A stretch of 64,000 bases of DNA, from NCBI GenBank assembly GCA_016342685.1, contig JAEINU010000001.1, positions 888,169 through 952,168 on the forward strand, given 5' to 3'. A program made the position numbers and the translations under genes. Of this stretch, positions 34,205 to 51,592 are shown in pieces (positions within the stretch are counted from its first letter, which is position 1; each line of letters begins with the position of its first letter). The notes under the pieces were generated by a model. That model did no database searches. It was not told the origin of the DNA and saw nothing but the letters and a program-made list of their open reading frames with translations. This DNA comes from Bacteroidales bacterium (GTDB lineage: Bacteria; Bacteroidota; Bacteroidia; Bacteroidales; UBA12077).

Positions 34205-36745
34205 ATGAAAGCTAACGAATTATTATATCGAAAATTATTTGAATCGGCTTCAGAAGCTTTAATTATTATTGATGCAAATTCAGGTGTAATAATAGATGTA
34301 AACTCATCTGTTTCATCATTTTTTGGATATCGTAAAAATGAGTTAGTAGAAAAAGTAGTTTGGGAAATACAACTTTTTAAGAAAATTGTAAAAAATGAAG
34401 AGAGTTTTTTAAAATTGTCAAAATGTGACCTTCCAATTTATCGTGATTTTCCAATTTCAACCAAAAACACGAAAATTATTTTATATGAACTAGTGATTAG
34501 TAGGTATACAATAAATGCAAATAATATATTACTATTTAGTTTTAGTGATATTGCAGAAAAAAAAATGGCCGAAAATGAATTAATGCTAAGTAAAGAGCAA
34601 TTTAAAAGTTTTATGTATTCAGCTACAGATGGGTTTATTTTATTTGATTCTGATTTAAATCATATTGATATTAATAAAAAGGCTCTGGATATAATAGGTC
34701 TTTCACGTAGAGATGTTATTGGTAAAAATTTAATCGATATAGTTCCTAATATAAAAGTTTCTGGTAGATATGATGAATACAAAAAAGTTATTGAAACAGG
34801 AGGAAAATTCATTAAAATTTTCAAACCGCATTCTAAATTTGGTGATAAATATATTGAGCTAAAAGCCTTCAAGGTACATTCAGGACTTGGAATGATTTTA
34901 AATGATATTACAGAACGCAAACAAATAGAAAAAGAACTACAAGAAAGTGAAGAAAAACTCCGAAATATTTTTGAAAATAGTACGAATTTATTTTATTCAC
35001 ATACTGCTGATCATATACTAACATATATAAGCCCTCAAGTAAAACAAATTCTTGGTTGCTCTCAGGAAGACGCCATGGTTAATTGGACAAATTTTACATC
35101 AAATAATCCGATAAATGATATTGGATTTTATAATACAGTAAAAGCAATTGAAACAGGTAAACAGCAACCACCTTATGAACTGGAACTAATACATAAAAGT
35201 GGAAGGAAAGTTATGACAGAAGTTCGAGAAGCTCCTGTTGTAAAAAAAGGTAAAACAGTTTCTATTGTAGGAGCACTAACCGATATTACTGAATGTAAAA
35301 AAACTGAAGAGCGACTAAACCAATCATTGTCAATATTGCGCTCAACATTAGAATCAACTGCTGATGGGATTTTAGTAGTTAATAATGATGGTAAATGGAC
35401 AAGCTTTAATCAGAAGTTTATTAAAATGTGGAATATCTCAAAGGATTTAATAGATTCTGGTGATGATAAAAAAGCGGTTGACTCCATATTAACACAATTA
35501 AAATACCCTGAATTCTTTATAAATAAAGTTAAAGAATTATATGCTCATCCTGAGGAATACAGCATTGATGTAATTGAAAAGATGGATGGAAGGATCTTCG
35601 AGCGATATTCACAACCACAGCATAATAATGAAAAGATAGTAGGAAGAGTTTGGAGTTTTCGTGATATAACAGAGCAAAAAATGACAGAAAAGGCGTTGAG
35701 AGAAAGTGAAAAAAATCTCTCAATGATTTATAAGACTACAACCAATATATTGTTCCAAATTGGAGTTGAACCCAATGATTGTTATCGCTTTCTGATGGTT
35801 AATAAAGCTTTTTTAACATCTGTCGGATTAAGAGAAGAGCAAATTATTGGAAAAATTACAAATGAAGTAATACCAAAGTTTTCAATTAATTTGGTACATA
35901 GTAAGTATAAAGAAGCTATACGTAAAAAGAAAACCGTTCAGTGGGAAGAAACATCAAAATATCCGACCGGAGATAAATTTGGAATTGTATCAGTATCTCC
36001 AATCTTCGATGAGAATGGAAAATGTGTTTATCTTATAGGATCTGTTAATGATTATACAGAACGTAGGATGGTGGAACTACAATTAAATAAATCTAATAAA
36101 AAACTTCGTGAAATGACCTTACATATGCAAGAAGTTATAGAAAACGAAAGAATGAAAATTGCTCTTGATTTGCATGATGATTTAGGTCAGAAGCTTACAG
36201 CGTTAAATATGGATTTATCATGGCTTAAAGGCAGAACAATAAAAGATATACCTCAATTATCTGATAAACTAAATGAGATGACAGATCTCCTAAACTCAAC
36301 AATACAAGATGTACAGAAAATCGCAACAGAATTAAGACCTTCGATATTAGATGATTTAGGACTAATTCCCGCAATAGAATGGCTTTTAAAAGAATATAAA
36401 AGTAAAGCAAAATTAAAATATCAATTTAATATATCCCCACAGGGACTAGTAATTAAAAAACGTTTAACGGTGGCAATATTTCGAATAATACAAGAAGCAC
36501 TTACAAATGTAGTAAGACATGCTAATGCTACACTAGTAAAGGTTGATATTATAAAAGAGAACAAGTTATTAAGTATTGCTATAGAGGATAATGGAAAAGG
36601 AATAACAAAAAGAAATATTGAAGATTCAAAATCATTTGGACTAATGGGAATAAAAGAACGTGCCAATGTTTTTAAAGGAGAAGTAAAAATAAGTGTAGAA
36701 CCAAATAAAGGAACTAAACTAAAAGTTAAAATACCTTATGTGTAG
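34205..36745 (+). CDS. Five-PAS NarX/DesK-type histidine kinase
   Basis: This 846-residue kinase has no membrane helix, so it is probably soluble. Five PAS domains occupy about residues 8-120, 125-240, 245-365, 372-500 and 505-630. A HisKA_3 domain follows, with His657 in ALDLHDDLGQKLTALN, and a HATPase domain (755-846, IEDNGKGI and FGLMGIKERANVFKG). This kinase type pairs with NarL-family regulators, and such a gene overlaps it by 8 bp downstream (ATGTGTAG). Translational coupling makes them a cognate pair. Stacked PAS domains suggest several cytosolic inputs, possibly redox or a small molecule; none can be named. The chemosensory cluster follows on the same strand. Confidence 0.93.
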   Translation: MKANELLYRKLFESASEALIIIDANSGVIIDVNSSVSSFFGYRKNELVEKVVWEIQLFKKIVKNEESFLKLSKCDLPIYRDFPISTKNTKIILYELVISRYTINANNILLFSFSDIAEKKMAENELMLSKEQFKSFMYSATDGFILFDSDLNHIDINKKALDIIGLSRRDVIGKNLIDIVPNIKVSGRYDEYKKVIETGGKFIKIFKPHSKFGDKYIELKAFKVHSGLGMILNDITERKQIEKELQESEEKLRNIFENSTNLFYSHTADHILTYISPQVKQILGCSQEDAMVNWTNFTSNNPINDIGFYNTVKAIETGKQQPPYELELIHKSGRKVMTEVREAPVVKKGKTVSIVGALTDITECKKTEERLNQSLSILRSTLESTADGILVVNNDGKWTSFNQKFIKMWNISKDLIDSGDDKKAVDSILTQLKYPEFFINKVKELYAHPEEYSIDVIEKMDGRIFERYSQPQHNNEKIVGRVWSFRDITEQKMTEKALRESEKNLSMIYKTTTNILFQIGVEPNDCYRFLMVNKAFLTSVGLREEQIIGKITNEVIPKFSINLVHSKYKEAIRKKKTVQWEETSKYPTGDKFGIVSVSPIFDENGKCVYLIGSVNDYTERRMVELQLNKSNKKLREMTLHMQEVIENERMKIALDLHDDLGQKLTALNMDLSWLKGRTIKDIPQLSDKLNEMTDLLNSTIQDVQKIATELRPSILDDLGLIPAIEWLLKEYKSKAKLKYQFNISPQGLVIKKRLTVAIFRIIQEALTNVVRHANATLVKVDIIKENKLLSIAIEDNGKGITKRNIEDSKSFGLMGIKERANVFKGEVKISVEPNKGTKLKVKIPYV

Positions 36746-37388
36746 CATAGTTGAAGAAATAAAAGTATTAATTACAGATGATCATCCCATAGTTCGTAAT
36801 GGAATAAAACAGATACTTAATGATTGTTCTGATATTAACGTTGTATGTGATGTTAGCAATGGACATGAGTTACTAAATGAATTAAAAAATATTACTGTTG
36901 ATGTTATTTTATTAGATATTTCAATGCCAGGTAGAAACGGATTAAGCTATATAAAGGAAATTAAGAATATAAAACCCGAAGTTGCAGTTCTAATGTTGAG
37001 TATTTATTCTGAGGAACAATATGCCTTAAGGTCCTTAAAACTTGGTGCTTCAGGTTACTTAACAAAGTCAAGTACTCCTGATGAATTAATTACAGCAATT
37101 CGAAGAGTTGCCAAGGGTAAAAAATATATAACAACAATACTTGCTGAAAAAATAGCTATGGATGTTGGTAATGTACATGACAAGCCAGCTCATAATTTAC
37201 TTTCAGATCGAGAATTGGAAGTGATGTGTATGTTAGCAAATGGAAAGTCAAATAGTGATATTGCCACGGAACTTTCTCTCAGTCCTAAAACAATAAGTAC
37301 ATATCGCGAACGTATTTTGGAAAAGATGGATTTGAAAAGCACTGCAGAAATAATTCGATACGCAATTAAGGAAAGTTTAGTCGATTGA
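36738..37388 (+). CDS. NarL/FixJ-type response regulator
   Basis: This 216-residue two-domain regulator has a receiver at about 9-125, with Asp60 in ILLDISMPGRNG, acidic pocket ITDDH and the conserved Lys in GYLTKSS. A LuxR-type helix-turn-helix follows at about 150-210, with LSDRELEVMCMLANGKSNSDIATELSLSPKTISTYRERI recognisable as the GerE signature. The start ATG lies inside the end of the kinase gene, so synthesis of the pair is coupled. It should activate or repress unknown promoters after phosphorylation by the adjacent five-PAS kinase. Confidence 0.95.
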   Translation: MCSIVEEIKVLITDDHPIVRNGIKQILNDCSDINVVCDVSNGHELLNELKNITVDVILLDISMPGRNGLSYIKEIKNIKPEVAVLMLSIYSEEQYALRSLKLGASGYLTKSSTPDELITAIRRVAKGKKYITTILAEKIAMDVGNVHDKPAHNLLSDRELEVMCMLANGKSNSDIATELSLSPKTISTYRERILEKMDLKSTAEIIRYAIKESLVD

Positions 37389-37675: not shown

Positions 37676-38146
37676 ATGTTAAAGAAAAATAAATATGTAA
37701 TATTTTGGTTAGATAATCAAAAGTTTGCACTTCATCTTTCAAATGTTGAGAGAGTTGTACGTATTGTTGAAGTTAGTCCTTTATCAAAAACTCCTAAGTA
37801 TATTTTTGGAACTATCAATTTTCAAGGAGAATTTTTACCTGTTATAAACCTTCGAATACTATGTGATCTGAATGACCGAGATATTGATTTGAATGATCAA
37901 TTAATTATTACAAATACAACTAAAATTAAAGTTGCTCTATGGGTAGATTGTGTGAGTGATATTATTGAACGAGAAGATGAAGAAATAATTGAATCCGATA
38001 AAATATTAATGAAATCTAAATACAATGAAGGAGCATTCAAATTTAATGACGAATTAGTTGTAATTCATGATCTTGATACATTCTTGAACTTTAACGAAAA
38101 ATCACTTTTAAAATCTATAAACAAAAAGAAAGTGGTTAATATATAA
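37676..38146 (+). CDS. cheW: CheW-like coupling protein 1
   Basis: This 156-residue protein is essentially one CheW domain: YVIFWLDNQKFALHLSNVERVVRIVEVSPL, YIFGTINFQGEFLPVINLRIL and the closing VVIHDLDTFLNF strand. CheW proteins link a chemoreceptor to a CheA kinase. It is the first gene of a run that also encodes CheR, a second CheW, a receptor, CheA and CheB. Two CheW proteins are a hallmark of Wsp-type pathways (WspB and WspD). Its C-terminus is a short Lys-rich tail. Confidence 0.92.
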   Translation: MLKKNKYVIFWLDNQKFALHLSNVERVVRIVEVSPLSKTPKYIFGTINFQGEFLPVINLRILCDLNDRDIDLNDQLIITNTTKIKVALWVDCVSDIIEREDEEIIESDKILMKSKYNEGAFKFNDELVVIHDLDTFLNFNEKSLLKSINKKKVVNI

Positions 38147-38192
38147 TTTAAATTGAAACTAAAAGTTTCAAAAAAGTAAATTTTAAAAAGCG

Positions 38193-39671
38193 ATGAAAAA
38201 TAAGCTTTCTAAAATAGTAATTACGGATTTGAGAAAATACTTGTTGGCTCATTTGGGATTAAATTTTTCTGAGAAGCGGGAAACGGAATTAATACAAAAA
38301 TTAAAACCAGCAGCAAAAGAGTTTGGATTTAAAGATGTTTCCGAATTTGCTCAATGGCTTCTAAGAAATGGTTTATCCAATAAACAACTTGAGATTTTAG
38401 CTAGTTATTTAACTATTGGGGAAACTTATTTTTTAAGAGAGAAGAAGAGTTTTGATTTTTTGGAGAAATCATATTTACCAAGTATAATTCAAAAAAGAAC
38501 GGGTAAAGATAAGCAAATTAGAATATGGAGTGCTGGTTCTGCATCTGGAGAAGAAGCTTATTCAATTGCAATAACTCTTCTAAAAATTATTCCGAACATT
38601 AAAGATTGGAATATAACTATTCTGGCTACTGATATCAACCCAGATATGCTAAAAAAAGCCAAAAAAGGAATTTATACAAAATGGTCTTTTCGTAATAATC
38701 CAGATTGGTTTATTTCTAAATATTTCCAAAAAGTAGAAGGCAATTTATTTCAGATTCTACCTGAAATAAAGAATATGGTAACATTTTCACCTCTAAATTT
38801 GGCAAAAGATATTTATCCATCTTTATTGAATAATACAAATGCGATGGATATTATCTTTTGCCGAAATGTATTAATTTATTTTTCTCAAGAAGGAATTAGA
38901 GATGTTACAAATCGATTATATAAATCCCTTTTACCTGATGGAGTACTAATTGTTAGTCCTGTTGAAATGTCAAATTTAATATCTCCAAAATTTGCTAAAA
39001 TTAATTATGAAGGATATACAATTTACCAAAAAGGATTAATAAAAGATACAAAAGAGAGTTTGAAAAAAAATCAATTGCAAAAACTAACGGATAAATACAA
39101 ATTAATACAATCTACATTTAATCAATCAGTTAAAAAGAGAGTCATTTCGAATAAACCCATTAAAGAAATCGAAATCGAAAAGAATTCAAATTACAAACAA
39201 GCTATTATTTTATTTGAGCAAGGATTATTTGAACAAACTGAAAATCTTTTAAGCAAATTATTAGCAGATGATAAAGAAAATCACAAACAAATAATTTCTC
39301 TGTTAGCAAAGACAAAAGCAAATTTAGGAAAGTTAGAAGAGGCTAGATTATTATGTGATAAAGGCCTGGAAATTGATAAAACAGATTATAGTTTGTACTA
39401 TCTGAATGCAACAGTAAAGCAAGAACAAGGAAACGATGAAGAGGCTATTTCATCATTAAGAAGAGCAATTTATTTTGATCACAACTTTGTTTTAGCACAT
39501 TTTTTATTGGGAAACCTAAGCATTAAGAGGGGGAATATTGCAACAGGACAAAAATATATTAATAATGCGATAAATATTCTTTCTAATCTTGATTCAGACG
39601 ATATAGTTCCTGAATCTGATGGATTAACTGTTGGACGATTTACCGAAATAATAACAGCACTTAAAATTTAG
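38193..39671 (+). CDS. cheR: CheR chemoreceptor methyltransferase with C-terminal TPR repeats
   Basis: This 492-residue protein has an N-terminal CheR domain (about 1-275) and a TPR region (about 330-480). The SAM-binding motif is IRIWSAGSASGEEAYSIAI (about 110-128), followed by LATDINPDML and IIFCRNVLIYFSQEG. Three or so TPR units (KQAIILFEQGLFEQTENLLSKLL and DYSLYYLNATVKQEQGNDEEAISSLRRAIYF) follow. CheR-TPR is the architecture of WspC. It would methylate glutamates on the receptor encoded at 40278, opposed by CheB at 44407. The TPR part probably docks it to the receptor array. Confidence 0.94.
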   Translation: MKNKLSKIVITDLRKYLLAHLGLNFSEKRETELIQKLKPAAKEFGFKDVSEFAQWLLRNGLSNKQLEILASYLTIGETYFLREKKSFDFLEKSYLPSIIQKRTGKDKQIRIWSAGSASGEEAYSIAITLLKIIPNIKDWNITILATDINPDMLKKAKKGIYTKWSFRNNPDWFISKYFQKVEGNLFQILPEIKNMVTFSPLNLAKDIYPSLLNNTNAMDIIFCRNVLIYFSQEGIRDVTNRLYKSLLPDGVLIVSPVEMSNLISPKFAKINYEGYTIYQKGLIKDTKESLKKNQLQKLTDKYKLIQSTFNQSVKKRVISNKPIKEIEIEKNSNYKQAIILFEQGLFEQTENLLSKLLADDKENHKQIISLLAKTKANLGKLEEARLLCDKGLEIDKTDYSLYYLNATVKQEQGNDEEAISSLRRAIYFDHNFVLAHFLLGNLSIKRGNIATGQKYINNAINILSNLDSDDIVPESDGLTVGRFTEIITALKI

Positions 39672-39682
39672 AAGAAGTAGTT

Positions 39683-40261
39683 ATGGTAAAACAAAATGTA
39701 AAGGAAATTATCAAAAAGCCTGAGAATAATACAGGATTTAAAGATGCTATTAGAAAGAGAACTATACTTAAACATAGAGCCGATCTTCTAAAAATTAGTG
39801 TTAACAAAGAGGAAGTAGCTAGAGAACAATTAGAAGTTCTTGAGTTTATGTTGGCAAGTGAAAAGTATATTATAGATTCAAGTTTTGTTATTGAAGTAAT
39901 TCCATTAAAAGATTTAACACCACTGCCTTGTACACCGGAATTTATTTTAGGAATAATAAATATTAAAGGAAGAATATTGGCCGTAATTAATATAAAGAAA
40001 TTTCTGAATCTTCCTGAAAAAGGAATAACAAATTTAAATAGAGTCATCTTATTAAAATATCAGGATATTGAACTGGGAATTTTAGCTGATGAAATAACCA
40101 GAAGTACGAAAATTTATCCAGATAAACTTCAAGCAACTAATACTACTCTCAAAGGAATTCAAAACGATTATCTAGTTGGTATAACCGAAGATCGATCAAT
40201 CCTCTTAAATATAAAAAAAATCTTAACAAGTAAAATGATCATTATAAATGATGAAGTTTAA
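39683..40261 (+). CDS. cheW: CheW-like coupling protein 2 with N-terminal extension
   Basis: This 192-residue protein has about 50 N-terminal, charged residues ([19 protein letters not shown] and onward) before a CheW domain (about 52-185; [51 protein letters not shown]). The extended N-terminus resembles WspD. It starts 11 bases after cheR and ends 16 bases before the receptor's ATG, so it is within the operon. How it divides labour with the first CheW is unknown. Confidence 0.92.
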
Positions 40262-40277
40262 ATTAGGAGAAAAGATT

Positions 40278-42011
40278 ATGAAAAAATTATCAATAGGAAT
40301 AAAGATAGCATTGAGTTTCGGAATTGTAATACTACTACTACTCTTTATCGGGCTAATATCATATCAGAATCTAACTCGATTAAAATCAGAAGCTGATTGG
40401 GTTTCGCATACTCATGATGTTTTACACAATATTGAGTTTGTATATGGTGATTTAAAAGATGCAGAAACAGGACAACGAGGTTATATAATTACTGGTTTGG
40501 AAAAATATCTCGATCCATATAATAGTGCAATTGTTAATCTTGAGAAAGATATTAATTATCTCGAAAAATTAACAAGTGATAATGCTAACCAGCAACAACG
40601 AATTGAAAGATTAGAAGCCTTAATTTCAGAAAAACTCAAAGAGCTTGATGAAACTATTAAATTACGTAAATCTGGTGGTTTTGATGTTGCTCAAGAGTTA
40701 GTTATTACTGATGTTGGTAAGAAAGTAATGGATGATATTCGTGTTGTACTTACCGAAATGATTGATGAGGAAAATGAATTGCTTAATGAGCGATCTAAAC
40801 GTAGTGATGATGAAACTCAAACAGCTAAAAGTGGAATTATTATAATTATTATAGGAGCTTTTCTGATTGTCATATTCTTAAGTGTATACTTAACAAGGAT
40901 TATTGCACGACCTATTGGAGTGATTTCAAAAATTGCAAATCGAATCTCATTGGGAGATTTAAGCCAAGAGATTATAATTAATCAAAAAGATGAAATAGGG
41001 AAATTGGCAGAATCATTCAAAACTATGCAAAAGAGTATGCAGGAAAAAGCAGTTCAGGCAAAAGCTATTTCAGAAGGCAACTTAAAAATTGATATAAACC
41101 CTCTTTCAGATGAAGATACTATGGGCACAGCATTTAAAATTATGGTTGAGCGTCTTCGCAGTCAGATAAATGAAATAACCGAAGGGGTAAATGTTTTAGC
41201 TTCTTCAACAAGTGAAATTATGGCATCGGTAACACAGATGGCATCCAGTGCAGCCGAAACAGCTACTTCAGTTAGCGAAACAACTACCACGGTTGAAGAA
41301 GTGAAACAAACAGCCGAAATTTCGAACCATAAAGCAAAGGAAATATCAGAAAGTGCTATTAAAACATCTGAAATATCAAGAGAAGGAACAAAGGCAATTA
41401 ATAATACCATTGAAGGTATGAATAGGATAAAACAACAGATGGGATCGATTGCTAATATGGTTGTAGATTTAAGTGAACAGAGTCAGGCTGTTGGAGATAT
41501 TACTACTACGGTAAATGATCTTGCCGAACAATCAAATCTATTGGCCGTGAATGCCGCTATTGAATCGGCAAAAGCAGGAGAACAGGGAAAAGGATTTACT
41601 GTAGTAGCACAAGAAATTAAAAATTTAGCAGAACGTTCCAAAGAAGCAACTACACAGATAGGTGGTATTTTAAAAGATATTCAAAAATCGGTTAGTTCTG
41701 CTGTAATGGCAACAGAAGAAGGAGGGAAAGCTGCAGAAGAAGGTTTAAAACTTACTGTTATTTCAGGTGAAACTATTAAAACACTTTCTGATAGTGTTGA
41801 TGATGCATCTAATGTAATGATTCAAATTGCTGCATCAAGCCAACAACAACTTGAAGGAATGGATCAAATGGTTTCTGCAATGGAAAATATAAAAGAATCA
41901 AGCGTGCAGGCTGCGGCAAGTACTCAACAATCTGCAGATTCGGTTAATGAATTAAAAAAACTTGGAGATAAACTTAAGGAATTAATGAATCAATATGAGT
42001 TAGTTAAATGA
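40278..42011 (+). CDS. Methyl-accepting chemoreceptor with CHASE3 sensor
   Basis: This 577-residue receptor has TM1 (about 8-28), a periplasmic CHASE3 domain (30-170, with [13 protein letters not shown]), TM2 (about 183-205), HAMP (205-260) and the cytoplasmic signalling coiled coil (300-577). The tip is the canonical hairpin ([29 protein letters not shown], about 420-450). There is no C-terminal CheR-docking pentapeptide, which fits a TPR-containing CheR. I use the ATG at 40278, where an AGGAG lies about 8 bases upstream. The frame runs back to 40248 inside the CheW gene. CHASE3 ligands are unknown; WspA-type receptors respond to surface contact. Confidence 0.94.
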
Positions 42012-44317
42012 ACGAAAAAGAGGAATTTAGGAAAAGAATCTTAAGGACATTTAAAATTGAAGCTGAAGAGTGTATTCAAAATATGACTTCAAATTTAATT
42101 GAATTAGAAAAAGACCCTTTAGAATCTCGTAAAATGGAGTTAATCGAAGCTACGTTCAGGGAATCTCATAGCCTTAAAGGAGCATCTCGTGCGGTTAATA
42201 TAAGTGGAATAGAAACTGTTTGTCAGTCCATAGAAAATATATTTTCTGTTTTAAAAAATGAAACTCTCGAATTACTCCCTAATGTTTTTGATGGGCTTCA
42301 TTTAGCAATAAATATTCTTAGCGAGATACTAATTAATCCTACAGATGAAATCAATGATGATCTAAGCGAAAAAATTTCTGAAATTATTATTAATCTGGAA
42401 AATATTGAGCTAAGTAAAATAGAAGATATTGTAATTTCCAAAATAAAAAAAACAAAAACTATCATTAAAGAATCATCAAAGAATGATGAAATAGAGGAAC
42501 TAAAAGTTGATAAAAAGGAATCTCTTTCTGAAATAAAGAGGCTGTCAAGCGAAACCATCCGTGTTAATATTAGAAAATTAGATGATTTATTATATCAGGT
42601 TGAGGAAATGCTTTCGTTAAAATTAACAACCATTCAACACAGTGAAGACATAAAATCTATTTTTCAAAAAATGAGTATTTGGAAAAAGGAATCTTCAAAA
42701 GTAATTCCGCTTATGAGGGATGTTTTGCAGGAAATGGAATTAAAACAAAAAAACAATAATCTTTCTAAAGATGAAGAGAATATTAAAAAACTTATTCGAA
42801 TTTTCGAATGGACGATTGATTTTTATAAAATCATAGAAAACCAGTTGCTTGAGCTGAAAAAGAAATCTTTTCAGGAATCATATGATACAGGGGTAAAAAT
42901 TGAAAACCTTTTAGATGATATTAAAAAAATAATATCAATTCCTTTTTCGTCTATTTTAGATGTTTTTCCAAAAGCAGTAAGAGATTTGTCAAAGGACAAA
43001 GGTAAAAAAATAGAACTTGTTGTTAAGGGCGATGATATTGAGATTGATCGAAGAATATTGGAGAAAATACAAAACCCATTAATGCATCTTATCAGGAATT
43101 GCATTGATCATGGTATTGAAAAACCAAATATTAGAAAACAAAAGAATAAGCCAGAAATAGGGATAATAAAGATCAGTATTGATCGACTTGAAAACAATAA
43201 TGTGGAGTTATGTATTTCTGATGATGGTAAAGGAATAGATTTAGAGAATCTGAAAAAAAAGTATATAAATCAAAAGAAGATTGAACAAAAAAATACTGCT
43301 GATATTACAACAAATAATCTTTTATCATATATATTTAAATCGGGTGTTTCAACCAGTAGCATTATAACTGATATGTCGGGTAGAGGGTTAGGTTTAGCTA
43401 TTGTACAGGAAAAAATTGAACAGCTAGGTGGTTCCATTTCTGTTAATACAGAAAAAGATAAAGGAACAGAATTTAAGATTCAAATATCATTATCGATTAT
43501 TACATTCAGAGGAGTTCAGATTCGTGCTGGTGATATGAAATTTGTCATACCAACGTCAAAAATAGAACGAGCGATAAGAGTAAAAAAATCAGAAATAAAA
43601 ACTGTCGAAAATAAAGCAACTATTCCATTTAATGGAGCTGTAATTCCTTTAGTTAACTTAAATGATGTTTTAGAGTTTACTAAACAAGAAAATGATAGCG
43701 ATTATGTTTTAGTAATAATTTTAGGATCACTGGGAAATCAGGTTGGATTTGTGGTTGATGAAATTATAGATGAAGAGGAAGTTTTGGTAAAAAGTTTTAA
43801 TAAACACCTAAAACGTATTAGAAATATATCAGGAGCTACTGTATTGGGCTCAGGGAAAGTAATACCTATTCTTAATGTTTCAGATCTTTTAAAATCAGCA
43901 GTAAAAGAAACTTCTTTTGTTATACAACAAAGCGATGTTGAAAAAGAAAATGGAAAGAAATCTGTTTTGGTTGTAGAAGATTCGATTACTTCTAGAATGC
44001 TTCTGAAAAATATATTAGAAACTGCAGGTTATTTGGTCGAAACAGCAATTGATGGTGTGGAAGGTTTTACAAAATTAAAGGAAGAAGATTTTGATTTAGT
44101 TCTTTCTGATGTTGATATGCCAAGAATGAATGGATTTGATCTTACTTCAAAAATTCGTTCCGACGAAATTCTATTAGAGAAACCTATTGTTTTGGTTACA
44201 TCTCTTTCAAAGCGCGAGGATCGAGAACGAGGGATGGAGGTTGGAGCCAATGCCTATATCGTTAAAAGCAGTTTTGATCAAAGTAACCTGTTAGAAGTTA
44301 TTGATAGATTAGTATAG
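42008..44317 (+). CDS. cheA: CheA-type kinase with C-terminal receiver (WspE-like)
   Basis: This 769-residue protein has an Hpt domain (1-105) with His54 in [11 protein letters not shown], an acidic linker, an unusually long dimerisation helix region (about 180-320), HATPase (320-490; [25 protein letters not shown]), a CheW-like P5 domain (495-630) and a receiver (645-769) with Asp701 in [12 protein letters not shown]. No P2 docking domain for CheY/CheB is evident. The CheA-REC architecture matches WspE and FrzE. Its start overlaps the receptor stop (ATGA), so translation is coupled. Phosphate from His54 could go to its own receiver, to CheB, or to the receivers of the 1078-residue kinase. 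Confidence 0.94.
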
Positions 44318-44406
44318 CAATTAACAATGAATAATTTGTAGCATGAATAGTGTGCCCAACGAGTTAAAATAAGATATAAAACAGCATAAATTACAGATAA
44401 AATATT

Positions 44407-45507
44407 ATGATAAAAGTATTAATAGTAGAAGATTCAAGGGTAGTAAGCGAATATTTAAACTATATTTTAAGTTCAGATCCTGAAATTCAGATTGTTGGGA
44501 ATGTTAGTAATGGACGACAGGCAATAGAATTTTTAAAAAAGAAAAAACCTGATGTTATTACGATGGATATAGATATGCCAATAATGGATGGGCTTGAAGC
44601 AACGCGTATAATTATGTCAACTACTCCTGTTCCAATTATAATTGTAACTGCCAGCAGAAATGCGAAGGAAGTAAGCATTTCAATGGAGGCATTAGCAGCA
44701 GGAGCACTTTCAGTTGAAGAAAAACCGCGGGGAATAGGCCATCCCGATGAAGAATTTCAAGCCAGGAAATTAATCAAGATAGTAAAGTTAATGTCTGAAA
44801 TTAAGGTTGTTACTCGTAAGTTTTATATGATTAATAAATCAGAATCAAAATTAGATGTTAAAATATCAAAGCATACTATTGGTGATTTAAACAAAAAGAA
44901 AATTGTTGTTGTAGGATCATCTTCAGGAGGTCCACTTGTTCTTCAAAAAATATTTTCTAAAATCACTCAAGAATTTCCTTACCCAATTCTGGTTGTTCAA
45001 CATATAGCGGTAGGTTTTATTGATGGTTTGATAAATTGGCTTAGAAACACTTTGTTAATTCCGATTCAGGTTGCTACAGATAATGAAGTTTTAAAATCAG
45101 GACACATCTATTTTGCACCTGATCATCATCAAATGGGAGTAAGTAATAGTGGCAAAATCAATTTAGATAAAAGTGATAGCTATAATGGATTATGTCCATC
45201 AGTTGCTTACCTTTTTAAAAGCGTTGCCGAAGAATATGGAAAGCATGCAATTGGAATTATACTTACCGGTATGGGTAGCGATGGTGCAAATGAACTTAAA
45301 ATTTTAAAAGACGCAGGTTCTATTACTATTGCTCAGGACAAAGAAAGTTCTATTGTTCATGGAATGCCAGGTGTTGCAATTAGACTAAATGCAGCGAATT
45401 ATATAATGAATCCTGTAGAGATTTCAGATGTTTTATTAAATATAGAACAATATTTTACAAGTATTAACGAGAATCTTCATGAAAATATAAGTAAAAAAGG
45501 AGGTTGA
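44407..45507 (+). CDS. cheB: CheB receptor methylesterase/deamidase
   Basis: This 366-residue protein has a receiver at 1-125 (Asp54 in ITMDIDMPIMDG) and a C-terminal methylesterase domain at about 160-350. The catalytic Ser (172) lies in VVGSSSGGP, the His (199) in VVQHIAVGF and the Asp in GMGSDGANEL. It removes methyl groups added by CheR-TPR and is activated by phosphorylation of Asp54, giving adaptation. It corresponds to WspF. The last codons of the gene contain a strong AGGAGG that serves the next gene. Confidence 0.95.
   Translation: MIKVLIVEDSRVVSEYLNYILSSDPEIQIVGNVSNGRQAIEFLKKKKPDVITMDIDMPIMDGLEATRIIMSTTPVPIIIVTASRNAKEVSISMEALAAGALSVEEKPRGIGHPDEEFQARKLIKIVKLMSEIKVVTRKFYMINKSESKLDVKISKHTIGDLNKKKIVVVGSSSGGPLVLQKIFSKITQEFPYPILVVQHIAVGFIDGLINWLRNTLLIPIQVATDNEVLKSGHIYFAPDHHQMGVSNSGKINLDKSDSYNGLCPSVAYLFKSVAEEYGKHAIGIILTGMGSDGANELKILKDAGSITIAQDKESSIVHGMPGVAIRLNAANYIMNPVEISDVLLNIEQYFTSINENLHENISKKGG
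45498..45503 (+). promoter_or_regulatory. Perfect Shine-Dalgarno sequence AGGAGG
   Basis: AAAGGAGG ends at 45503, six bases before the ATG at 45510. It is complementary to the 16S 3' end. Strong Shine-Dalgarno sites are rare in Bacteroidota, so this one supports ATG 45510 over the overlapping TTG at 45504. Confidence 0.7.
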
Positions 45508-45509
45508 TT

Positions 45510-48500
45510 ATGAAACATAATATGAAAATATTAATTGTTGAGGACAGTAGAACTCAGGCAGAAGAACTGAAGTATATTTTAGAACGTAATGAATATATAG
45601 TGCAACATGCTTTAGATGCTAATAAAGCAATGGATTTATTAAATAAATATGAGCCGGATGTTATTATTAGTGATATTATCATGCCCGGAAAAAATGGATA
45701 CGAATTATGTAGAGATATTAAGTCTGATAGTAAGTTAAAAAACATTCCTGTTATTCTTTTAACTTCTCTTTCTGATCCTTCAGATATAATAAAAGGTTTA
45801 GATTGCGGTGCCGATACTTTTATTACAAAACCTTATAGTGAAAATTTTCTCCTTTCGAAAATTGATTATTTAATTATGAATTTTAGGATGAGAAAACATC
45901 AAAGTACTGATATTGGTTTAGAAGTCTATTTTACAGGAAAAAAACATTTAATAACATCTTCACGTTTGCAAATTGTCGACCTTCTTTTTTCAACATACGA
46001 AAATGCAGTAATTAAAAATGATGAACTCAGAACCGCAAATAATCAATTAAAGTTAACACAATCGCAGTTAAATGATTTAAATAAAAGCCTTGAAAATAAG
46101 GTTATACAGAGAACACATAATATTAAAAATATAAATGCCGTTCTTCGGGCTATTCGAGATATAAATCAGCTCATTATTAAAGAAAAAAATCGCAAGAAAT
46201 TAATTAGAAAAGCTTGTAATATAATTATAAAATCTAATGTCTTTCAAAATGTGTGGATTGCACTTACAGATAAAGATAATAAAGTAACAGATTTTTTTGA
46301 AAATGGAATAAAAAGTAAACACCATAAATCTTTCAAAGAAATGTTTCATGACTCTATTCCATTTTGTATGAAAGAAGCTCTTAAAACTGATGATATTTTA
46401 TTAATTGATGAAAAAACTAAGGAGTGTGGTACATGTCAAAGGAAATTACTAAGGGATAGTATTAATAATGTAGAGATGATTATAGCATTAAAATCAAAAA
46501 CAAAGTCTTATGGTGTTATAATGGTAACGATGCCTAAACATTTTATCGAAGATGAAGAACAGCAACGTTTATTTAAAGAAATAGCCCAAGATATTACTTT
46601 TGGCTTGTATAATATCGATTTAGAAGAGCAACGAACCCTCGCAGGAGAAAGGCAAGCTCTTACAGCAAAAATTTTATCTATACTAAGTAGACAAAATGAA
46701 TGGCAAAGATTAATAAAAGATATTATCAAAGTATTAAAAGATTATACAGGATTTGATGCTATTGGAATAAGAATGCAAGATAATCATGATTTTCCTTTTT
46801 ATGAATCAATTGGTTATTCATCAGAATTTTTAAAATCGGATAATATGTTGTGTTCAAAAGATGCAAATAATGAATATATTAGAAATGAAAATGGTGAAGT
46901 GGTTTTAAAATGTTTATGTGGAAAGGTTATATCAGGAGGTATTCATAATCATCAACCATATTATACAAAAATAGGAAGTTTTTGGTCAAACAATTTAAGT
47001 AAATTAATTGAAAGCAAGGTAATTAAAGATTTAATTATTCCTGAAGGTATTTTATGTCAGTCAGAAGGCTATGAATCAATTGCATTAATTCCTCTACGAT
47101 CAGGAACAAAAACAATTGGCTTATTAAAATTGAAAGATAAACGTTCTAAGCAATTTAATTTGGAAAAGATTCATTTCTTTGAAGAAATTGGTCATACTAT
47201 TGGGATTGCATATAAAAGGATGCAAGCAGAGAAACTACTTAAAGAAAGTGAACAACGATTTAGATCCAGTTTGCAAAATTCAAAAACAACAGTTTCTAAT
47301 CAGGATTTAGATTTAAAATATTCTTGGGTATATAATTCCTATCTTAATCTTGAAGATCACCAAGTAATTGGAAAAACTGATAAAGAGATCTTTAGTGAAG
47401 ATGATGCAAATACTTTAATCGAACTGAAAAAAATAGTATTAAGAACAAAAGAAAAAATAAATAGAATTATTAAGCTAAAAGTTGATGGAAAGGTAAGTTA
47501 TAAAGATATTACATGCGAACCTATATTAAAAAATAGTGATGAAGTAATAGGGATCGCTAGTATTTCAACAGATATTACAGAGTTAGAGAAAGCAAAACTG
47601 AAAGCCGAAGAAAGTGATAAACTGAAATCTGCATTTTTAGCAAATGTATCACATGAAATTCGAACACCATTGAATGGTATAATAGGCTTTTCAAAACTGT
47701 TAGTTGTTTCAGATATACCAAAAGAAAAAGCAGAAAGCTTTGTTGATATAATAAATGAAAGTTGTCAGCAACTTTTAAGAATAATTGATGACATTCTTGA
47801 TATCTCAAGAATTGAAACAGGCCAGTTTGAAATTACGAAAGAAGATTTTTATTTAAATGATGTTTTCAAATTATGTTTTAATGAATTTGAGCCTAGATGT
47901 CTAGAAAAAGGATTAAAATATAGTTACTATAACAATGTTCAGAAGGAATTACAATTTATTAATACAGATAAAATTAAATTAAGTCAGATATTGAATAATT
48001 TAATAAGTAATGCTATTAAATTTACCGAAATAGGAGAGATTTTTATAGGTTGTGATTTAAAAGCTGGTTATTTGGAAATAAGCGTAAAGGATACTGGAAT
48101 AGGTATAAGTGAAGAAGATAAAGAAAAAGTATTTGATCGATTTTGGCAAGTAGAAGTTGATTTTGCACGAACATATGGAGGTACAGGTTTAGGATTGTCA
48201 ATTGTAAAGGCTTATGTCGAGGCATTAGGTGGTACCATTGGAGTAAAATCAAAAATTGGTAAAGGGACTGAAATGTATTTCAGGTTACCACATACAATGC
48301 AGGAAACAAATAATTCTATTATTTCAGAAATGAAGAAAGTATCAATAAATAATGATTTGAAAGACAAGGTTGTTCTTGTAGCTGAAGACGAAGAAATGAA
48401 TTTCCAATATCTATACGAAATTCTTAGTGATAAAAAAATGAAAGTTTTAAGAGCTAAAAATGGTGAAGAAGCAATAGAAATGTGCAGTTCAAATCATGTA

Positions 48501-48746
48501 GATATGGTATTTATGGATATAAAGATGCCTGTGATGGATGGATATACTGCAACCAAAATAATAAAAAAGAAATTTCCTAATTTAATAGTTATAGCCCAGA
48601 CAGCTTTGGCTACATATAATGATAGGGAAAATGCCTTAGAAGCAGGTTGTGATAATTATATTTCGAAACCAATTAATTATGAAGAATTAGTTAAAACAAT
48701 TGAAGCTTATTTTAAAAAGAATAAAAAATCCATCAAATCCATTTAA
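45510..48746 (+). CDS. Double-receiver hybrid kinase (REC-GAF-GAF-PAS-HisKA-HATPase-REC), presumed pathway output
   Basis: This 1078-residue soluble protein starts with a receiver (about 4-122; Asp in VIISDIIMPGKNG), then a coiled coil (150-200), two GAF-like regions (about 205-350 and 370-560; the second has an insert with paired cysteines in LKCLCGK), PAS (575-690), HisKA (His715 in NVSHEIRTP), HATPase (DTGIGI, GTGLGLS) and a C-terminal receiver (about 955-1070; FMDIKMPVMDG). It takes the place of the WspR diguanylate cyclase in a Wsp-like gene order. The N-terminal receiver could accept phosphate from CheA and so gate the kinase. No GGDEF or DNA-binding domain is present, so the final output lies elsewhere. 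Confidence 0.93.
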   Translation: MKHNMKILIVEDSRTQAEELKYILERNEYIVQHALDANKAMDLLNKYEPDVIISDIIMPGKNGYELCRDIKSDSKLKNIPVILLTSLSDPSDIIKGLDCGADTFITKPYSENFLLSKIDYLIMNFRMRKHQSTDIGLEVYFTGKKHLITSSRLQIVDLLFSTYENAVIKNDELRTANNQLKLTQSQLNDLNKSLENKVIQRTHNIKNINAVLRAIRDINQLIIKEKNRKKLIRKACNIIIKSNVFQNVWIALTDKDNKVTDFFENGIKSKHHKSFKEMFHDSIPFCMKEALKTDDILLIDEKTKECGTCQRKLLRDSINNVEMIIALKSKTKSYGVIMVTMPKHFIEDEEQQRLFKEIAQDITFGLYNIDLEEQRTLAGERQALTAKILSILSRQNEWQRLIKDIIKVLKDYTGFDAIGIRMQDNHDFPFYESIGYSSEFLKSDNMLCSKDANNEYIRNENGEVVLKCLCGKVISGGIHNHQPYYTKIGSFWSNNLSKLIESKVIKDLIIPEGILCQSEGYESIALIPLRSGTKTIGLLKLKDKRSKQFNLEKIHFFEEIGHTIGIAYKRMQAEKLLKESEQRFRSSLQNSKTTVSNQDLDLKYSWVYNSYLNLEDHQVIGKTDKEIFSEDDANTLIELKKIVLRTKEKINRIIKLKVDGKVSYKDITCEPILKNSDEVIGIASISTDITELEKAKLKAEESDKLKSAFLANVSHEIRTPLNGIIGFSKLLVVSDIPKEKAESFVDIINESCQQLLRIIDDILDISRIETGQFEITKEDFYLNDVFKLCFNEFEPRCLEKGLKYSYYNNVQKELQFINTDKIKLSQILNNLISNAIKFTEIGEIFIGCDLKAGYLEISVKDTGIGISEEDKEKVFDRFWQVEVDFARTYGGTGLGLSIVKAYVEALGGTIGVKSKIGKGTEMYFRLPHTMQETNNSIISEMKKVSINNDLKDKVVLVAEDEEMNFQYLYEILSDKKMKVLRAKNGEEAIEMCSSNHVDMVFMDIKMPVMDGYTATKIIKKKFPNLIVIAQTALATYNDRENALEAGCDNYISKPINYEELVKTIEAYFKKNKKSIKSI

Positions 48747-49132: not shown

Positions 49133-51592
49133 ATGGTTAAAGTAAATAAAATTGGACTTTATAATAAATTGGATTTGTTAATATCATTTTTTCATCCAAA
49201 ATCACAGACGATTAAAAAAAGAAGTAAGACTAGGAAGAAGCTATTTTTGGAAAATTGTAATTCGTTGAATGTTATAGATTTTATTGGGAAATCAATAGTA
49301 AATAATACCTATTATTGGGAGTGTTTGATTGATCAGGATGGAAATTACCTTCATGTTTCGCCCGCATGTGAAAAAATATGTGGATATAAACCAGATCAAT
49401 TTGTTAATAATCCAACATTTATTATTGAAATTACGCATCCATATTATAAAGAAAAAGTCAAAAAACACTTTTGTTATAATAAGGATGAAATTCTAAGTAA
49501 CTATTTATTAGAGTTTAAAATTATCAGAGAAGATGGTGTTGAATGTTGGATAGAGCATAATTGCAAGTCTGTTTTCGATAATAATGGAAATTACTTGGGT
49601 AGACATGAGCATTACAAAGATGTTACTGAGTATAAAAAACGCCTTTATGAGTTAGAAAAAAGGGAAAAGAAATATAGAGATATTGTTGAACTAACAATTA
49701 ACGCAATTTCATGTACAAATCAAGAAGGTTATTTTACTTTTTTTAATATGCAATTCTCTAATTTATTTGGTTATAGTTTCGATGAAACTAAAGAATTAAG
49801 ATTTTTAGACTTAGTTCATCCAGACGATAAGCAAAGAATTCAGGAAAAACACGAAAAAAGATTTATTAATAAAGAATCTGTATCTAACTATGATTTTAAA
49901 GGAATTAAAAAGGATGGAACCATAGTTTATATTGGTATAGCTGTTAGCTATATTGTTAATCTTTATGGTGAAAATGATGGGTCAATATCATATTTGAGAG
50001 ATATTACCGAACAAAAGATTGCTAATGAAAAGATAAAAATATTTGCACAGACAATCGAAAGTATCAGCGAAGGAGTTTGTATTGTTAATACAGATCATAA
50101 AATATTTTATATAAACAAGGCCATGCAAAATATGTATGGTTATTCTACAGAGGAGATAATAGGGAATACTCCTAAAATTTTAAGTCCGAATACACCAAAA
50201 GTGGTTTCCGATACTATATATAATGAAGCATTAAATGGCGGTTGGAAAGGTGTTGTGTGGAATGTCAAAAAAGATGGATATGTTTTCCCTGTTGATCTTA
50301 CAACTTCTTTAGTTAAGAATGCAAAAAATGAAACAGCAGCAATTGTCGGTATAGCAAGGGATGTAACGGAAAGAATGCAATCCGAAAAATTTAAAAAAAT
50401 TAAGTTCAATATTTCTCAAGCTCTTGCAAATAATATAAAACTTGATGTTTATATTTCTTTCATTATTGATCAATTAAAAGGAATTGTAAATATATCTAAC
50501 TATTATTTTGCACTTTATGACAAAGAAAATGATTCATTTAGTACTTCATGTATTTTAGATGAAAAGGATAAATTTCTTAGTTGGTCGGCAAATAAGACAT
50601 TATCAGCGCTTGTAGTTAAAAACAAAAAATCTCTACTTGTAAATAGAGAAGAAATTGATAGAATGGTTCAAAATAGTGAGATTGATATTGTTGGAACTGA
50701 ATGTGAATCATGGTTGGGAGTTCCTGTTAGTGTTCTTGGAAAAACGAGTGCGCTTTTTGTAATCCAAAGTTATAAAAGTAAAAACTCATATAAAATTAAA
50801 GATCTGGAAATCTTAGAGTTTGTTTCAGATCAATTAGGTAAGTTGATTGAGAGAAAAAAGTATATTAAAGATTTAAAAAAGGCTTTAAAAAACGCACAGG
50901 AATCAGATCAGCTTAAAACAGCTTTTCTAGCAAATATGAGTCACGAAATAAGAACCCCTTTAAATGGATTTCTTGGTTTTGTAAAATTGTTAACTTCTGT
51001 TGGTAACGATGAAGAAAAAAGAAACCACTACATTGATATCATAAATAAATGTTCAACGCAACTGCTTTCTATTATTGGTGATATTATGAATATATCGAAG
51101 ATAGAAACTGGTCAAATAGAAGTAAATATTGAGAAATTTGAAATAAACGATCTCCTGAAATCATTATTTGAAATACATAAATATCAATTTGATGAAAAAA
51201 AAATCGATCTAAGATTACTGCCTGATTTATCTAATAAACCCAAAGAGATTAATACAGATAAAAGAAAATTGATTCAGATACTTTCAAATTTACTAAGTAA
51301 TTCACTGAAGTTTACTGAGCAGGGATTTACTGAATTTGGATATGACATTAGATCTAAGACTTTTGAATTTTATGTTAAAGATTCAGGTATTGGTATTGAA
51401 AACTTTCAATGTGAAAAGGTATTTGAATGTTTCCGACAAGTAGAACTTGAGTACACAAGAAAATATGGAGGTAATGGTTTAGGCCTTTCTATTTGCAAAG
51501 GATTTGTTGAGCTTTTGGGAGGAGAAATATGGTTAGAATCAGAAATAGGAAAAGGCTCAACATTTTATTTTACATTGCCATATAATAAATAA
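49133..51592 (+). CDS. PAS-PAS-PAS-GAF histidine kinase without receiver
   Basis: This 819-residue soluble kinase has a basic N-terminal segment (1-45), three PAS domains (about 50-165, 175-290 and 300-415), GAF (425-570), HisKA with His604 in NMSHEIRTPLNG, and a HATPase domain (700-817; DSGIGI, GNGLGLS). Unlike the kinase at 45510 it ends after the ATPase domain, so it must signal to a separate receiver, perhaps one of those in the chemosensory cluster upstream. In the second G box the usual GTGLGL reads GNGLGL. It has its own upstream region of 386 bases and is probably transcribed separately. Confidence 0.92.
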   Translation: MVKVNKIGLYNKLDLLISFFHPKSQTIKKRSKTRKKLFLENCNSLNVIDFIGKSIVNNTYYWECLIDQDGNYLHVSPACEKICGYKPDQFVNNPTFIIEITHPYYKEKVKKHFCYNKDEILSNYLLEFKIIREDGVECWIEHNCKSVFDNNGNYLGRHEHYKDVTEYKKRLYELEKREKKYRDIVELTINAISCTNQEGYFTFFNMQFSNLFGYSFDETKELRFLDLVHPDDKQRIQEKHEKRFINKESVSNYDFKGIKKDGTIVYIGIAVSYIVNLYGENDGSISYLRDITEQKIANEKIKIFAQTIESISEGVCIVNTDHKIFYINKAMQNMYGYSTEEIIGNTPKILSPNTPKVVSDTIYNEALNGGWKGVVWNVKKDGYVFPVDLTTSLVKNAKNETAAIVGIARDVTERMQSEKFKKIKFNISQALANNIKLDVYISFIIDQLKGIVNISNYYFALYDKENDSFSTSCILDEKDKFLSWSANKTLSALVVKNKKSLLVNREEIDRMVQNSEIDIVGTECESWLGVPVSVLGKTSALFVIQSYKSKNSYKIKDLEILEFVSDQLGKLIERKKYIKDLKKALKNAQESDQLKTAFLANMSHEIRTPLNGFLGFVKLLTSVGNDEEKRNHYIDIINKCSTQLLSIIGDIMNISKIETGQIEVNIEKFEINDLLKSLFEIHKYQFDEKKIDLRLLPDLSNKPKEINTDKRKLIQILSNLLSNSLKFTEQGFTEFGYDIRSKTFEFYVKDSGIGIENFQCEKVFECFRQVELEYTRKYGGNGLGLSICKGFVELLGGEIWLESEIGKGSTFYFTLPYNK

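Follow-up and report, generated by a model that had tools for sequence, protein, structure and literature searches.

Transfer of phosphate from the chemosensory kinase CheA3 of R. centenum to the first receiver (REC1) of the kinase CheS3 was seen only when the receiver site of CheA3 itself had been removed, and the same part of that source infers that the transfer inhibits CheS3 (PMC3868531). In Burkholderia, WspH is a hybrid kinase that stands in place of WspR, without the rise in cyclic di-GMP (c-di-GMP) of P. fluorescens wsp mutants, and its output is described as unknown in the passages of PMC8552884 that deal with it. In clusters that encode a CheR methyltransferase fused to TPR repeats (CheR-TPR), about 40% of the regulators carry HisKA/HATPase domains according to the relevant section of PMC3447774, whose main text, Table S2 aside, has 0 mentions of Bacteroidetes or Bacteroidota. 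CheA proteins themselves vary in domain content, with frequent lack of P2 and gain of a receiver (PMC10542144, in its account of domain variety), and kinases with an N-terminal receiver have been defined as hybrid response regulators (PMC9239204, in the section concerned). Kinase outputs in CheR-TPR clusters, WspH and the CheA3-to-CheS3 transfer are thus already published, and the wiring considered here is of a known kind; open-access literature searches, supplementary tables aside, found no such cluster in Bacteroidota, and we do not claim its absence from print. Here we analyze a seven-gene chemosensory operon in a 64,000-nucleotide stretch of a Bacteroidales genome (GCA_016342685.1, contig JAEINU010000001.1, positions 888,169 to 952,168 of the forward strand), which we call the window. 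The best explanation of this operon, with a probability of about 0.62 in our estimate, is an 'alternative cellular function' (ACF) pathway in which CheA would phosphorylate the N-terminal receiver, REC1, of the adjacent hybrid kinase and so switch that kinase.

The seven genes are open and collinear, all on the + strand, at 37676..48746 of the window, and their Pfam-confirmed domains agree with the gene set and outline given in the initial annotation of this DNA. They encode a CheW coupling protein (CheW1, 37676..38146; Pfam CheW, E=9e-23), a CheR methyltransferase fused to TPR repeats (38193..39671; Pfam CheR, 4e-49, and TPR families), a second coupling protein (CheW2, 39683..40261; Pfam CheW, 1.5e-25), a CHASE3-HAMP-MCP chemoreceptor (40248..42011; Pfam CHASE3 8e-46, HAMP 7e-14, MCPsignal 8e-35), a CheA-REC protein with Hpt, HATPase, CheW and REC domains (42008..44317; assigned from Pfam, residues and clade position), a CheB with receiver and methylesterase (44407..45507; Pfam CheB_methylest 5e-52 and the CheB tree) and the output hybrid kinase (45510..48746; assigned from Pfam, residues and start context). 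The joints, in operon order, are 46 bp, 11 bp, a 14-bp overlap between CheW2 and the receptor, a 4-bp overlap between the receptor and CheA, 89 bp and 2 bp; the short gaps noted earlier are therefore there, and a 4-bp overlap, once assigned to several joints, occurs at only one. The phospho-sites of CheA (His54 in the Hpt domain and Asp701 in the receiver) and of CheB (Asp54) are all present. Pfam made no H-kinase_dim call in the operon CheA, whereas the other CheA of the genome has one, and in an NCBIfam scan of five cluster proteins CheB alone passed the cut-off.

The most likely start of the kinase is ATG 45510, 2 bp past cheB, rather than TTG 45504, which overlaps cheB, because AAGGAGG precedes the ATG. 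Its architecture is REC1-(GAF-like region)-GAF-PAS-HisKA-HATPase-REC2, with phospho-sites, numbered from ATG 45510, at Asp55 (REC1), His715 (HisKA) and Asp1003 (REC2). In the REC-GAF-GAF-PAS-HisKA-HATPase-REC order first proposed, both receivers, the PAS domain and the transmitter hold; Pfam gives a single, partial GAF match (residues 517-569, counted from the TTG) with no stretch passing alone, and the first GAF is backed only by homology to relatives that have a Pfam GAF there (e.g. L102, L103 and L104). REC1 (45525..45887, +), with Asp55 as the proposed CheA target, is marked by its E-D-D-T-K set and its conservation between operons. The conserved linker that follows (45888..46106, +) was delimited from alignment, a single-sequence model and co-occurrence, and is predicted to form a beta-hairpin (residues 135-150, low confidence) and a long helix (152-199), in a model built from one REC1-plus-linker sequence with linker blocks at pLDDT 41-54. 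A fold search with this model recognized REC1 only, as an ordinary receiver (best match 3gt7, a Syntrophus histidine kinase receiver, 48% identity). The HisKA and HATPase_c transmitter (47625..48293, +; Pfam 6e-21 and 3e-28) and REC2, the C-terminal receiver (48372..48701, +; Pfam Response_reg), complete the protein.

A CheA match at E up to 1e-60 was found in 12 of 198 genomes of the order, own genome included, among the best 5 candidates scored per genome. A class-wide profile search gave a match in 13 of 395 genomes, full-length only for the window's own CheA, and in the phylum some match was present in 113 of 395 genomes; 12 of the 20 regions fetched there fall in the window's CheA clade, a lower bound because only 20 high-scoring places, not strictly the top 20, were fetched. 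A single-protein scan of genome contigs returned 15 loci whose matches lay in the receiver domain or in the CheA C-terminal half, and these were set aside. The same set of genes occurs again at 24 loci of other genomes and on one Niveispirillum plasmid, suggesting that it is more than a chance assembly, and several of these loci are incomplete (L040 has no CheR, L110 no CheB, and others stop at the end of a contig or stretch).

In trees of the CheA core region (HATPase plus CheW), the window CheA belongs to its own clade of 26 rows, with support of 99/99 in a thinned tree and an SH-aLRT of 99 in a 71-row tree. The thinned tree leaves out 8 duplicates, three long branches (L122, L126 and L128) and 14 thinned rows of distant groups, whereas the 71-row tree leaves out duplicates only and keeps those three branches; both show the same core and Wsp clades. 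Besides the window and Niveispirillum L119, this 26-row clade contains 12 loci found in 11 order genomes and another 12 that belong to other classes of the phylum. A separate WspE-type clade of 8 rows (100/100) holds Azoarcus L121, Cupriavidus L129, Mesorhizobium L130, Burkholderia L120 and the phylum rows L090, L112, L114 and L115. The CheB tree, built without L128, L066, L067 and L083-L098, repeats the split between a 25-row window clade and a 7-row WspF clade (100/100). A tree that forces the core and Wsp CheA rows together has a p-AU of 0.095, so that a sister relation of the two is not rejected. The window CheA also stands apart from the second CheA of its genome, from E. coli CheA and from the multi-Hpt CheAs, judged against few named references, and thus, as had been expected, not with the flagellar or type IV pilus classes; the Che3-like CheA of L127 lies near the core on a very long branch (support 84/66; core plus L127, p-AU 0.44). 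The reference loci come from named plasmids, several with unannotated records, and the labels Wsp, WspH and Che3-like were assigned from domains and gene order. The phylum relatives L112, L114 and L115 of the WspE clade encode receiver-first outputs, that of L112 being REC-SpoIIE by Pfam, not GGDEF, and that of L115 resembling it by eye. In another CheA group, L113 (12383-15713) encodes two receiver outputs, one of them fused to a nucleotidyl cyclase domain.

With a CheA outside the flagellar and pilus (Tfp) groups, a multidomain regulator (REC1-HisKA/HATPase) and the associated feature CheR-TPR, the system is an ACF-type chemosensory pathway. Niveispirillum L119 is an alphaproteobacterial plasmid cluster whose genes follow the order of the window and whose receptor has CHASE3, and its place inside the clade may reflect transfer between phyla. 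A search with the CHASE3 domain of the window picked up CHASE3 in no more than 3 of the 26 clade loci (the window, L039 and L119), so the input domain of the clade seems to vary, and the surface or envelope sensing initially ascribed to the pathway is unsupported.

A receiver-first protein adjoins CheB in 25 of the 26 clade loci (in L110, where no CheB was found, it adjoins CheA), which bears out the expected linkage of the kinase with the operon. Among these 25 proteins, 19 scanned with Pfam and the other 6 by domain phmmer only, 23 have HisKA, one (L038) has a SpoIIE-type phosphatase and one (L100) is a bare receiver; the L040 kinase runs off a contig end ahead of its HATPase. The minimal form has about 420 residues and consists of REC-linker-HisKA-HATPase. 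The output part is swapped between kinase, hybrid kinase and SpoIIE phosphatase and the sensor domains vary too, while REC1 is kept. Because a C-terminal receiver is present in only 7 of the 25 proteins, the double receiver, named in the heading of the initial annotation, is by this comparison a local elaboration and not part of the core, and the N-terminal receiver is the constant part.

We then compared the two receivers as candidates for the CheA signal. A held-out profile of REC1 plus linker, made from 11 loci that all lie outside the order, was run on the 198 order genomes, with the best 16 candidates scored per genome, and gave 18 copies of at least 189 bits. These lie in 12 genomes, of which 11 belong to the 12 CheA carriers and one, G180, to the 186 others; the G180 copy runs off a contig end in a genome that is 84% complete. 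The twelfth carrier, G168, which has the phosphatase output, reached 148 bits, with the match confined to the receiver, and the best other genome 132; the bit-score cut was chosen after the gap had been seen, and the searched genomes are kin. This profile superseded a first one, with which all 12 carriers and G180 scored at least 170 bits (G168 171, next 138) and to which, rather than to the held-out pattern, a Fisher p of 2e-18 belongs; the carrier scores of the first profile were partly by construction, because 11 of the 12 carriers had contributed rows to it. The E-D-D-T-K acceptor set of REC1 is intact in 28 of 28 domains examined. Over 24 operons, between-operon identity (helix 1 in brackets) is 51% (54%) for REC1, 62% (64%) for CheA-REC and 48% (35%) for CheB-REC; for REC2, over 9 operons, three of them represented by a second kinase of the locus, it is 34% (19%). 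Since helix 1 is conserved between operons in REC1 and not in REC2, REC1, unlike REC2, seems to preserve a common partner surface.

Several observations weigh against REC1 as the target. All 9 REC2 domains examined likewise have an intact acceptor set, L102 carrying D for E and L104 S for T, so residues alone cannot choose the receiver. REC1 is no closer to the CheB receiver (29% identity) than CheA-REC is (28%), and a shared docking surface is therefore invisible at the level of identity; a docking test by within-operon similarity of REC1 and the CheB receiver gave no signal. L119 has no receiver protein beside CheB, we count the limited numbers of candidates scored per genome in the order searches on the same side, and adjacency, co-occurrence and conservation could also fit a purely regulatory contact. 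With these points counted, CheA-to-REC1 as the output step is well supported by the comparison of loci; the evidence points to the N-terminal receiver that had been proposed from the start, and the phosphotransfer itself is what we infer from it.

The preferred explanation would work as follows. The receptor/CheW array would control CheA, whose His54 phosphate would pass to its own receiver Asp701, a likely sink, to CheB Asp54 and to REC1 Asp55 of the kinase. Phosphorylated CheB would serve adaptation through CheR/CheB methylation. Phosphorylated REC1 would act via the conserved linker and its helix to turn the HisKA/HATPase part up or down, and the kinase phosphate would then move to REC2 and on to an Hpt/response-regulator pair, or directly to a regulator elsewhere or next door. 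We infer all of the phosphotransfer steps, and likewise the direction in which REC1 acts, the partner downstream and the signal. The genome search turned up three Hpt domains, those of the two CheAs and one in a free 120-residue protein on contig C23 (L137 8601-9319), which lies beside a STAS-domain protein and is the only free Hpt found. A more specific version, which we offer tentatively, is that REC1 and the hairpin-helix linker form a dedicated CheA output plug, to which the array pathways of the entire clade attach interchangeable outputs by fusion, and that the array here acts through the kinase and REC2 on the single free Hpt. As such a plug, REC1 plus linker would let the array command a kinase in a genome in which no GGDEF was found, and one chemosensory array would feed a shared phosphorelay hub instead of c-di-GMP.

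Two alternatives keep the array and the kinase and change what passes between them. CheA might mainly drain or set the phosphate of the kinase branch, through a phosphatase activity or its own receiver, rather than donate to REC1. The Che3 system of M. xanthus is said, in the part of PMC3868531 concerned, to act as a phosphatase on CrdA, and the CheA studied here has a receiver of its own; that source also reports no phosphate flow from CheS3 to the CheA3 receiver in R. centenum, and conservation of helix 1 in REC1, but not in REC2, also speaks against draining, which we regard as unlikely. Alternatively, the kinase might be an independent sensor that is merely co-transcribed, with CheA signaling to CheB and to a regulator elsewhere, as the GAF/PAS inputs of the kinase itself and the missing output protein of L119 would allow. 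This we consider improbable, given that REC1 plus linker is found together with this CheA and hardly ever in the remaining genomes searched, and that REC1 stays while the sensor domains vary.

The rest of the genome bears on two further alternatives, in which the output would lie outside the operon. The whole genome has 10 MCP domains and 10 CheW domains, and a second chemosensory cluster at about C9:469,700-478,700 (locus L050, C9:465001-484900) encodes single-domain receivers, a CheA with H-kinase_dim, CheW, CheR, CheD and CheB. The operon could steer motility (e.g. gliding) as an ordinary chemotaxis system via a CheY elsewhere, since its array components are complete and single-domain receivers exist in the genome. 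We think this very unlikely: no flagellin was found in the genome (the control was positive in 4 of 14 genomes), the second cluster, with its single-domain receivers and CheD, is a better candidate for taxis, and the non-motility class typically has multidomain outputs according to the section of PMC3447774 on them. A true Wsp system with its c-di-GMP enzyme elsewhere would explain the identical parts list, and yet we give it almost no credence. Pfam shows no GGDEF within the cluster and none among the 19 Pfam-scanned adjacent output proteins, and a domain search of the 4.77-Mb genome, whose control found GGDEF in 8 of 14 genomes, also gave none, so that c-di-GMP made by GGDEF proteins is not the output as far as this search shows. 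The lack of GGDEF extends to the 11 other carriers of the order (12/12 with own genome), whereas one or two GGDEF domains occur in 10 of the 12 carriers that belong to other classes. The Wsp alternative is thus refuted for a GGDEF protein unless one is encoded in the unassembled part, and the separate CheA and CheB clades and the different gene order also oppose it. The absence of GGDEF, CheY and flagellar genes from the cluster, read earlier from the letters alone, holds: none of the seven genes encodes a stand-alone CheY, and the searches gave neither GGDEF nor flagellin.

Just upstream of the operon, a NarL-type regulator (REC-LuxR; 36738..37388, +; Pfam) is paired with a multi-PAS HisKA_3 kinase (34205..36745, +; Pfam). 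The regulator is a possible downstream partner of the pathway, judged from its position and from similar NarL genes upstream in L099, L102 and L104, which share 37-50% identity with it, another NarL of the genome sharing 33%. As a fixed partner it was rejected, and we do not count it into the system, because the window and these three loci, 4 of the 22 clade loci whose upstream region is visible, are too few. A multi-PAS-GAF HisKA kinase without a receiver lies 386 bp downstream of the operon (window 49133-51592).

The operon is a compact example in which comparison indicates the receiver that an array kinase addresses when the output is another kinase and no GGDEF is found in the genome, and the family, whose minimal REC-HisKA-HATPase outputs have 420 residues, lends itself to studies of how a receiver switches a kinase. 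The Che3 system of R. centenum shares with the window a CheA-REC, CheB, CheR, two CheW proteins, a receptor and an adjacent kinase with an N-terminal receiver, and its proxy, Indioceanicola L127, also shares the order CheW-CheR-CheW-receptor-CheA-CheB-kinase; judged by this proxy, the genes are ordered as in a Che3/CheS3-like cluster. In CheS3, a further N-terminal receiver lacks the phosphorylatable Asp and the kinase domain is of the HWE type (PMC3868531, in its description of CheS3), and L127 is built likewise (REC-REC-PAS-HWE), whereas the kinase of the window combines HisKA with a C-terminal receiver whose Asp is intact. The ACF clusters of PMC3447774, as far as its account of CheR-TPR clusters goes, share with the window CheR-TPR and a multidomain receiver protein. 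The Pseudomonas-type Wsp system (proxies L121 and L130) has the same parts in one operon, namely a receptor, two CheW proteins, CheR, CheA-REC and CheB, and to that extent the Wsp-like label of the initial annotation was apt; its order is receptor-CheW-CheR-CheW-CheA-CheB against CheW-CheR-CheW-receptor-CheA-CheB here, its CheA and CheB (proxies L121, L129 and L130) form separate clades, and its output in L121 is an annotated diguanylate cyclase. By the tests made, on CheA and CheB clades, gene order and output, the system of the window would not be classed as Wsp. The WspH system (proxy B. stagnalis L120) shares the replacement of the GGDEF protein WspR by a hybrid kinase/receiver protein, and differs in that the L120 CheA lies in the Wsp clade, that the order is receptor-first and that wspH is 5' of the operon, whereas the kinase gene of the window is 3'.

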